Assembly (NCBI GenBank): GCA_903832205.1
Contig: CAILAH010000060.1
Location: forward strand, 1 to 36,007
DNA length: 36,007 nt
Source: an uncultured Microcaldota archaeon
GTDB taxonomy: Archaea > Micrarchaeota > Micrarchaeia > CAILAH01
Direction: 5' to 3'
The position numbers and the translations under genes were made by a program. Below the pieces are notes generated by a model, which saw only the letters and a list, made by a program, of their open reading frames with translations, was not told the origin of the DNA and ran no database searches. Position 1 is the stretch's first letter. Each line of letters opens with the position of its first letter. Positions 17,114 to 35,627 of the stretch are shown piece by piece.

Positions 17114-17827
17114 TTAGGAATATTTTTTAAGCGTTAGGGCGTGCTGCCTTAGCCTGCCTTTGACAGCGGGGCTCTCCAGCTCCCTGATTGCATCAGCGGC
17201 AATCCATTTTGCGGATTTTGAATTGAGCTTTTGGATTTCCCTTGCGGTCTTGAGCGCCTGCGCGTTCAGCAGCAGGCTGCGCTTTCCAATTTGCCGAAGG
17301 GCCCAGTTCACCGCCTTTCTTACGAAATTCCTCTCATCGGCTGATTCGCGCTTGATTATTGGAAGGAAGCGCAGGAACGCTTCATTGTTCGCTTTCTTAT
17401 CGTGCACTGCAAGCGCGGCCATAAGGGCAAACCCCGCCCGCTTCACGAATTCCTCATTTCTTTTACTCCATTCAATTGCCTTGGCATGCGCATAGGGCGT
17501 CCTGTCAAAAAGGTTTGAGCAGGCCTGGTCGCAGATGTCCCAGGAATCAAAATCTTTCGCCCAGTGTTCCATCTGCTTTTCAGTGACTTGCTTTGGGTCG
17601 TCGATAAATCCGGCAAGGAGGCGCGCCTCGTGGATTTCTGATTCCCAGAGCTTTTGCGCGAGCGCGTGGTCTTTTCCTATCTTCTTTGCATAGGCGCGCA
17701 AAAAGGGGATGGGAATGCCCAAAGTATTCTTTGGATTTATTCCGAACCGCGCCATTCCCGCCACGTTCGTGGGGTTGGAATGGGACTTTAGTTTTGCTAT
17801 GACCTGTGATGCACTCTGCGCTGCCAT
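17114..17827 (-). CDS. DNA alkylation repair enzyme, AlkD-like HEAT-repeat glycosylase
   Basis: GIPIPFLRAYAKKIGKDHALAQKLWESEIHEARLLAGFIDDP...SWDICDQACSNLF...RNFVRKAVNWALRQIGKR; start trimmed to ATG 17827. Confidence 0.88.
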   Translation of the reverse strand: MAAQSASQVIAKLKSHSNPTNVAGMARFGINPKNTLGIPIPFLRAYAKKIGKDHALAQKLWESEIHEARLLAGFIDDPKQVTEKQMEHWAKDFDSWDICDQACSNLFDRTPYAHAKAIEWSKRNEEFVKRAGFALMAALAVHDKKANNEAFLRFLPIIKRESADERNFVRKAVNWALRQIGKRSLLLNAQALKTAREIQKLNSKSAKWIAADAIRELESPAVKGRLRQHALTLKKYS

Positions 17828-17850
17828 GGTCTTATGTGTCAAAAAAATGT

Positions 17851-17856
17851 TTTAAA
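17851..17856. promoter_or_regulatory. Shared palindromic TATA box (TTTAAA), mirror promoter
   Basis: Centre 17853.5 is 26.5 bp from both ATG 17827(-) and ATG 17880(+). Confidence 0.65.
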
Positions 17857-17879
17857 GTGTGAGCGTGCCTAAAATCCTC

Positions 17880-18452
17880 ATGGAAAATCCGGGGCTCCTG
17901 GAGAAGTACAAGAGGGGCAAGCATTGGGAAAAGCACCCTACTGTTTATGCTGAGAGGTTCGTGAGGTTCCTGAATGATAATGGGGTTAGGGGAAAAGTGG
18001 TCGATATCGGGTGTGGCAACGGCAGGGATGTGGCCGTGTTCAAGAATGCCGGGTTTGACGCGCTGGGCATCGACCATTCGCCCGAAGAAATTAGGCACGC
18101 ATCAATGCTGCATCCCGACTGCATGTTTGAGGTGCAGAATGCGGAGTCAATGAATTTGCAGGACAACAGCGTCGCTGCGTTTTTCATGATTAATGTGGTG
18201 CACTATACCAGGAAGAAGGAGGCGTTCAGGGAAATACAGAGGGCGCTGATGCCCGGAGGGCTCGTCCTGGTGCATTTCAACCTCTCAATTGTTGACAGCT
18301 ACCTTAACGTGGACTATAGGGACGATGAGAAGGAGATTATGAGTCTTGTTTCAGATTTTGAGGTAATGCACAGGGAAACCTTCCAGAGAAAGGATATGCT
18401 GCCGCATGAGCATACGCATACCATACTTGAGCTTATACTAAAGAAGAAATAG
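17880..18452 (+). CDS. Class I SAM-dependent methyltransferase
   Basis: VVDIGCGNGRDVAVFKNAGFDALGIDHSPEEI; start trimmed to ATG 17880. Confidence 0.9.
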   Translation: MENPGLLEKYKRGKHWEKHPTVYAERFVRFLNDNGVRGKVVDIGCGNGRDVAVFKNAGFDALGIDHSPEEIRHASMLHPDCMFEVQNAESMNLQDNSVAAFFMINVVHYTRKKEAFREIQRALMPGGLVLVHFNLSIVDSYLNVDYRDDEKEIMSLVSDFEVMHRETFQRKDMLPHEHTHTILELILKKK

Positions 18453-20213: not shown

Positions 20214-20278
20214 TGGATTACCTCTTTAGCACACATGTGCGTAACGTATTATATAAGGGTTGGAGGAGGAGTATCTGC

Positions 20279-33799: not shown

Positions 33800-34522
33800 T
33801 CATTCACAGACGACAACATTGCTCAGGACGCCCTTGGTGCCTGGGATGAAGGGCTCGGTTGTGGCCTCTGCCGTAGTAAGGCCTGTAACGGGCTCGGTAA
33901 GGCGATAGGTATGCTCCCCGTTCACGGAAACCTGGACGACAATCTTTCCGTCTTTTGTGCGGAAGCCGTGGTCGAATAGGACTTTTACGGAAGTGCCGTC
34001 AGCGCCGGGGAAGTCGACCTCCTTTCCTTCCTCAATCTCGATGTCGTTGCCGTCCGACTTGAATAGGAGTTTTGAGATTTTGTAGCCCATGGGGCCGAAT
34101 TTCAGTAAGCACGAATCGGAGGCGGATTCGCAAGTCACGCTGCCGTCGCTGCCCGAGCTTACGGTGGGTGAGATAGACGGGTCCCGCGGTGCGGTCTCAT
34201 AGGATGCCCGGTCGTTCTCGACGTCAATATCTTTTATGGTAAGGTCGATGCCACAGTTTGCGGGGAACTTCTCGCCCGCAAGCATAATCCTGGAAAATTC
34301 TGAAGAAGAGGAGGTGCACTTTTCAGTGACCACCACGTATTCAGGAGGGTTGCAGCTCAGGTCAATATCGTTAGAAACTGCATCAGGCTGCTGGGGCAGG
34401 CATGACGGGAGAAGTGCAATGCCTGCGGACAGAAGGGAAATTTGCAGAAACTGCTTTGCCTTTTGGATTTTAGTAATTGCATGCTTGCTGTCAATTCGCA
34501 TTTCGGGCTTCACCGCACTCAT
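33800..34522 (-). CDS. Lipoprotein, probable distant paralogue of the 32018-33739 protein
   Basis: ISLLSAGIALLPSC lipobox; DIDLSCNPPEYVVV resembles PVDLSSKPPDVIVK of the neighbour. Confidence 0.75.
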   Translation of the reverse strand: MSAVKPEMRIDSKHAITKIQKAKQFLQISLLSAGIALLPSCLPQQPDAVSNDIDLSCNPPEYVVVTEKCTSSSSEFSRIMLAGEKFPANCGIDLTIKDIDVENDRASYETAPRDPSISPTVSSGSDGSVTCESASDSCLLKFGPMGYKISKLLFKSDGNDIEIEEGKEVDFPGADGTSVKVLFDHGFRTKDGKIVVQVSVNGEHTYRLTEPVTGLTTAEATTEPFIPGTKGVLSNVVVCE

Positions 34523-34545
34523 AAAAGGATTGGGGGCGGCGGCGG

Positions 34546-34551
34546 TTTAAA
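34546..34551. promoter_or_regulatory. Shared palindromic TATA box (TTTAAA), mirror promoter
   Basis: Centre 34548.5 is 26.5 bp from both ATG 34522(-) and ATG 34575(+). Confidence 0.65.
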
Positions 34552-34574
34552 TAGTTTTCACGCAACATAACCTT

Positions 34575-35012
34575 ATGCGCATCTATCTTGTGCAGCACGG
34601 GAAGTCTGCGAGTGAGGAGGAGAATCCCAGGAAGCCGCTTACGTTTGAGGGGAGAAATGAGACGCTCAGGGTGGCGAATGCAATCGCAAGGAACGGGCTG
34701 GAAATAAAGAGGATACTGCATTCGGGGAAGACGAGGGCGGAGCAGACGGCGCAGATTTTTGCCGAGAAATTATCGGTAAACGAGGTGGAGGATACGCACG
34801 GGATTTCACCAGTGGACCCGCCGGATGAGATTGCATCGCGGCTGGAAGACGGGATGATGATTGTGGGCCATATGCCGCACCTGAGCAAATTGACGTCGTA
34901 TTTATTGCATTCACCGGAAACAATAAAATTCAAAAACAGCGCGGTTCTTTGTTTAGTTGAGTATCCCGAGGGCTGGAAGATTGAGTGGTACATTACGCCT
35001 GAGATGCACTAA
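34575..35012 (+). CDS. sixA: SixA-like histidine phosphatase
   Basis: MRIYLVQHGKSASEEENPRKPLTFEGRNE; MMIVGHMPHLSKL. Confidence 0.9.
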   Translation: MRIYLVQHGKSASEEENPRKPLTFEGRNETLRVANAIARNGLEIKRILHSGKTRAEQTAQIFAEKLSVNEVEDTHGISPVDPPDEIASRLEDGMMIVGHMPHLSKLTSYLLHSPETIKFKNSAVLCLVEYPEGWKIEWYITPEMH

Positions 35013-35576: not shown

Positions 35577-35595
35577 GGGCATATATCCCGCCTTG

Positions 35596-35607
35596 GATTT
35601 ATAAATC
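35596..35607. promoter_or_regulatory. Shared palindromic TATA box (GATTTATAAATC), mirror promoter
   Basis: Perfect 12-bp palindrome, centre 35601.5, 25.5/26.5 bp from ATG 35576(-) and ATG 35628(+). Confidence 0.65.
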
Positions 35608-35627
35608 TTTGAACTGATATGGTAAAC

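Follow-up and report, generated by a model that had tools for sequence, protein, structure and literature searches.

A TATA box probably shared by two divergent leaderless genes in a Microcaldota archaeon, and a genome-wide class of 52-bp intergenic intervals

Transcription in both directions from a single archaeal TATA box has been described in Pyrococcus furiosus, where RNA-seq and in vitro experiments identified one TATA with a BRE on both sides and transcription start sites (TSSs) 49 bp apart (Gruenberger et al. 2019, PMC6640164). The products in that species are mainly a sense RNA and a presumed non-functional antisense RNA, the genes concerned lie head to tail, and head-to-head genes are separated by a median gap of 117 bp (PMC6640164). 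Promoters with symmetric sequence are known from both bacteria and archaea (Warman et al. 2021, Nat Microbiol, as relayed by PMC10268837 and PMC12825309); in the bacterial bidirectional kind, a −10 element is shared and the TSSs usually lie 18 bp apart (PMC10268837). The interval analyzed here resembles the BRE-TATA-BRE arrangement of P. furiosus in its near-symmetric TATA box with a TTTAAA core and the roughly 50 bp between starts, both of which are known here from sequence geometry; of its flanking BRE-like elements, the one on the plus side is strong and the one on the minus side weaker. It also resembles the promoters of Warman et al., as far as these are presented in the two citing articles, in that divergent transcription would stem from the sequence symmetry of a core element. 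It differs from the P. furiosus case in that both outputs are predicted mRNAs of protein genes, that the ATG lies at the predicted TSS, and that the gap belongs to a discrete 52-bp class. Unlike the bacterial kind, it has a TATA box, start codons 52 bp apart, and archaeal TFB genes in the genome, and it falls outside that group. In the limited open-access literature searched, we found no description of a class of constant start-to-start gaps in which two leaderless protein genes share a TATA. The mechanism is one already published for P. furiosus; what looks new is that it serves pairs of protein genes as a matter of routine and so holds their gap at 52 bp.

The window, that is, the whole stretch of 36,007 nucleotides analyzed, is contig C60 (CAILAH010000060.1) of a draft genome that totals 1,111,759 bases over 70 contigs at 81.8% completeness and was put together for the analysis from stretches with about 500 bases missing. 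Genes were called with a simple codon model making no use of upstream signals, and start codons are thus predicted ones. The minus-strand gene of the pair (17114–17827, 237 aa) encodes an AlkD-like DNA alkylation repair protein (Pfam DNA_alkylation, E-value 1.5e-36) and the plus-strand gene (17880–18452, 190 aa) a SAM-dependent methyltransferase (Pfam Methyltransf_11, E-value 1.3e-15); both are predicted to be leaderless and neither has an SD upstream. The predicted AlkD-like start codon at 17827 is supported by its surroundings, the sole alternative upstream start being a TTG at 17842, and by the homologue L102, whose N-terminal Met coincides with it. The initial annotation had reported 52 bp between ATG 17827 (−) and ATG 17880 (+), with TTTAAA (17851–17856) centered 26.5 bp from each, and this is exact. 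The full octamer, TTTTAAAG (17850–17857, center 17853.5), is the top match to the genome's promoter matrix in both directions, scoring 8.0 (+) and 7.1 (−). For the plus direction it is flanked by a BRE-like element, AAAAAATG (17842–17849), which fits the A,A,n,G consensus found upstream in this genome, and for the minus direction by a weaker one, CGCTCACA (17858–17865). On both sides, the TATA lies some 26 bp from the start codon and an SD is absent, as in a leaderless promoter, and the near-symmetric TATA is placed for both divergent starts.

In our estimation, it is highly probable that the 52 bp form a minimal archaeal promoter of the bidirectional kind, in which one TATA is shared by two leaderless genes. 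A single TBP-binding TATA would lie midway between the start codons, flanked on either side by an A-rich, BRE-like element; TBP would bend the box, TFB would dock from either side and set the direction, and RNA polymerase would start about 26 bp downstream, on or beside the ATG, yielding a leaderless mRNA for the repair enzyme or for the methyltransferase. The interval would measure 52 bp because two leaderless genes each require 26 bp. Only a single complex would fit at once, so that one TBP occupancy event would be common to both genes, which would compete for TFB; the methyltransferase may be slightly favored, its BRE being the stronger. Two-way transcription, the choice made by TFB, and mutual exclusion are all inferred from this arrangement.

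The same layout was said to recur at 34523–34574, and there too the agreement is exact: a second TTTAAA (34546–34551) lies midway in a 52-bp gap, 26.5 bp from each of ATG 34522 (−) and ATG 34575 (+). The minus-side gene (33800–34522, 240 aa) has no Pfam match and the plus-side gene (34575–35012, 145 aa) belongs to the histidine phosphatase superfamily (Pfam His_Phos_1, E-value 5e-8). The BRE is poor on the plus side (GGCGGCGG, score 0.08) and scores 8.8 on the minus side. In the whole genome, TTTAAA at exact mirror spacing occurs only in these two pairs, and a reversed control pattern at the same spacing gave 0 sites.

A broader view of the gaps shows that the geometry of 52-bp pairs is not due to chance. 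Nineteen of the 172 divergent pairs in the genome have start-to-start gaps of 50–54 bp, versus about 4.5 expected from flanking bins (P = 2.6e-7); 15 pairs have gaps of 51–53 bp, seven of exactly 52 bp, and the adjoining 5-bp bins hold four and six. AT-rich boxes lie mid-interval in nearly all of the 50–54-bp gaps. Genome-wide enrichment of 51–52-bp gaps had been named beforehand as the test on which a recurring architecture should stand or fall, and the enrichment is present. It could be argued that gene calling, or intergenic compaction in general, has produced the peak artefactually, since starts are predicted and the genome is compact (89% coding). However, the peak is narrow and it survives both length filters and another start rule (P = 5.8e-7 for genes of at least 100 aa, 1.3e-5 for those of at least 150 aa, and 3.8e-5 with longest-ATG starts). 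A second cluster of gaps lies at 90–99 bp (20 of 172 divergent pairs, e.g., C68:1264-1361 and C57:5051-5148); a box is shared in none of the nine such pairs scorable on both sides, and two distinct TATA-like boxes are seen in many pairs of the cluster.

The artefact explanation also meets with a scan that involves no gene calls, in which the pattern CAT-N(22-24)-TTWWAA-N(22-24)-ATG was counted along with a spacing control, N(32-34). The scan was run on 246 genomes of the class, and in the 221 tabulated it gave 2559 sites at the 26.5-bp geometry versus 1056 at the 36.5-bp control. The window's own family showed 88 versus 24, and families f14, f19, f12, f15, and f18 were each enriched within a range of 3.4- to 10-fold; no enrichment was seen in f4 (231 vs. 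226) or f8 (186 vs. 166), which together comprise 84 tabulated genomes. A further 49 genomes, reached through other loci, were scanned likewise: counts were flat in 17 bacteria (99 vs. 83, P = 0.13) and were not enriched in eight archaea with larger genomes (95 vs. 93), while 14 other small-genome archaea gave 190 versus 60. In addition, 800 kb of the genome G033, from the unenriched family f4, yielded no 52-bp peak with the same caller and displays longer gaps and strong SDs; it had been picked as a replicate before the missing enrichment of f4 emerged and is used here as a contrast. Given this agreement, an artefactual peak is barely conceivable. The shared-TATA architecture is thus a lineage trait and, because two families and the eight larger archaeal genomes are unenriched, it is not a general archaeal rule.

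Which promoters carry leaders was addressed with a promoter matrix whose training set was limited to genes unable to belong to such divergent pairs; it recovered an octamer T-W-T-W-W-A-W-A with an A-A-n-G element upstream. Among first genes, those with a TATA centered 25–29 bp from the ATG (n = 210) have an SD in only 11% of cases; with the TATA at 36–46 bp (n = 79), the proportion is 71% (Fisher P = 1e-23 for the split between 25–29 bp and above 33 bp), and the former class is therefore most simply leaderless. The proposal that a 26.5-bp spacing corresponds to a leaderless mRNA accordingly holds in this genome. In 30 of 74 scorable divergent pairs, the two best TATA matches lie within 3 bp of each other, compared with 9.8 ± 2.5 when gaps are permuted (maximum 19 in 5000 shuffles). 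Pairs such as these might in principle contain two overlapping promoters a few base pairs apart, each with its own TBP register, as the 13 shared pairs with best matches offset by 1–3 bp would allow. The offset is zero in the other 17, though, and just nine pairs fall between +4 and +37 bp, most of the remaining pairs having separate boxes 38 bp or more apart; moreover, boxes so close could not be bound simultaneously and would behave as one site. We therefore regard overlapping promoters as very improbable. The scarcity of pairs at +4 to +37 bp is what steric exclusion of neighboring initiation complexes would predict.

A palindromic box might have been expected to mark shared promoters, and this was rejected: single-use boxes are equally palindromic, the octamers of shared and single-use leaderless promoters do not differ in this respect (2.16 vs. 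2.28 of four pairs, P = 0.16). Single-use promoters also have T-rich downstream flanks, and TATA symmetry is therefore general in the genome. When palindromic boxes were put to a strict test of independence within this one genome, the count was 13 versus 7.6 expected (P = 0.045); significance was weak because the effect is already part of the marginal frequencies. What decides sharing, instead, is whether a start codon lies at the mirror distance and an A-rich BRE is present on both sides. The initial annotation had proposed that one TBP site could serve both genes with no other core promoter; the single site is supported by the gap peak and the shared boxes, but a BRE is needed as well, and that of the second pair is poor on its plus side.

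These same observations leave some room for a one-directional promoter, whose TATA would serve one gene, the divergent transcript being low-level noise due to symmetry and the main promoter of the second gene lying elsewhere. With single-use boxes as palindromic as shared ones and T-rich downstream of them, divergent noise could be general; the poor plus-side BRE of the second pair points the same way, and the antisense RNAs of P. furiosus have been so interpreted (PMC6640164). If it were noise, however, start codons should not be overrepresented at the mirror distance, whereas the 50–54-bp class is about four times larger than expected, and a 52-bp gap offers scant space for a second promoter. 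Conservation of the geometry argues against noise as well. Among relatives, the methyltransferase of the AlkD-like pair has weak matches only, and conservation was therefore examined on the PrsW/RtcB pair. In the window's genome, in a member of the same genus (G001), and in one of the same family (G004), the PrsW/RtcB promoter has one box for both directions with zero offset, in gaps of 54, 52, and 54 bp, respectively, even as the intergenic sequence of G004 by now aligns poorly; in G002 the promoter is kept in part only. On balance, we find a one-directional promoter improbable and retain the shared TATA as the preferred reading. We also observed that RtcB carries a long in-frame insert after residue ~101–104, probably an intein, in G003 (G003:C49:39512-42307) and G012 (G012:C3:439231-442167).

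Single-lobe archaeal TBPs have been noted earlier (Ravarani et al. 2020, PMC7221094, and an earlier study it cites), and the window's family is of this type: four of its members, G001–G004, encode a single-repeat TBP of ~96–100 aa (L243:1468-1758 (+), L242, L240, and L241). In the window's own genome, about 82% complete, TFB genes are present and no TBP gene was found above the cut-off, while family members have one. The single-repeat protein is close to archaeal TBPs of known structure and matches each of their two repeats; it carries the TFB-docking stirrup YEPEQFPG, the position match being our reading of the alignment. Judging from its sequence, it presumably binds as a symmetric dimer, as a single lobe would have to pair to form the saddle and each half would then carry a TFB site. 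Some of the other families in the class have two-lobe TBPs, or two to three separate single-repeat genes. As a cause of the architecture, the single-lobe TBP finds no support across families: f12, f14, and f7 have two-lobe TBPs and are strongly enriched while f8 is single-lobe and unenriched, and because two-lobe families are equally enriched it cannot be the general cause. A more restricted and rather doubtful possibility is that, in the window's family, the TATA box lacks intrinsic polarity, an exact two-fold TBP homodimer letting TFB dock at either end and the BRE alone setting direction; the 52-bp pairs would then be two-way switches operated by one TBP dimer, and gene order would have been selected to make use of them. 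No link between single-lobe TBP and promoter symmetry was found in the accessible literature. A single-lobe TBP, expected to have no orientation of its own, makes the choice of direction in archaeal transcription directly testable.

In archaea, the divergent transcripts of a symmetric TATA have so far been taken mostly for noise; our results suggest that such transcription can drive two protein genes. A shared TATA would then fix genome geometry, and the gap would report leader type. Indeed, shared pairs form a series in which gaps of 50–57 bp, including the 52-bp class, separate two leaderless genes, those of ~61–68 bp usually have one long, often SD-led side, and the one case at 86 bp has two SD-led genes. 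Gap length may thus offer a means of reading promoter sharing and of correcting start codons in uncultured archaea by sequence alone. The interval 35577–35627, given in the initial annotation as a third instance of the mirror geometry, provides an example of such correction from TATA distance. Its octamer TTTATAAA (35598–35605, center 35601.5) lies 25.5 bp from ATG 35576 (−) and 26.5 bp from ATG 35628 (+), with matrix scores of 10.5 (−) and 8.0 (+) at those distances and a good BRE on both flanks. The geometry fits only with these two starts, but the gene caller preferred the upstream ATG 35582 and ATG 35619, over which the promoter geometry predicts 35576 (−) and 35628 (+). A fourth candidate for a shared TATA in the window (20247–20257) consists of overlapping boxes centered at 20250.5 and 20253.5; it lies in the 65-bp gap (20214–20278) from ATG 20213 (−) to ATG 20279 (+), with one short leader and one longer, SD-bearing leader.
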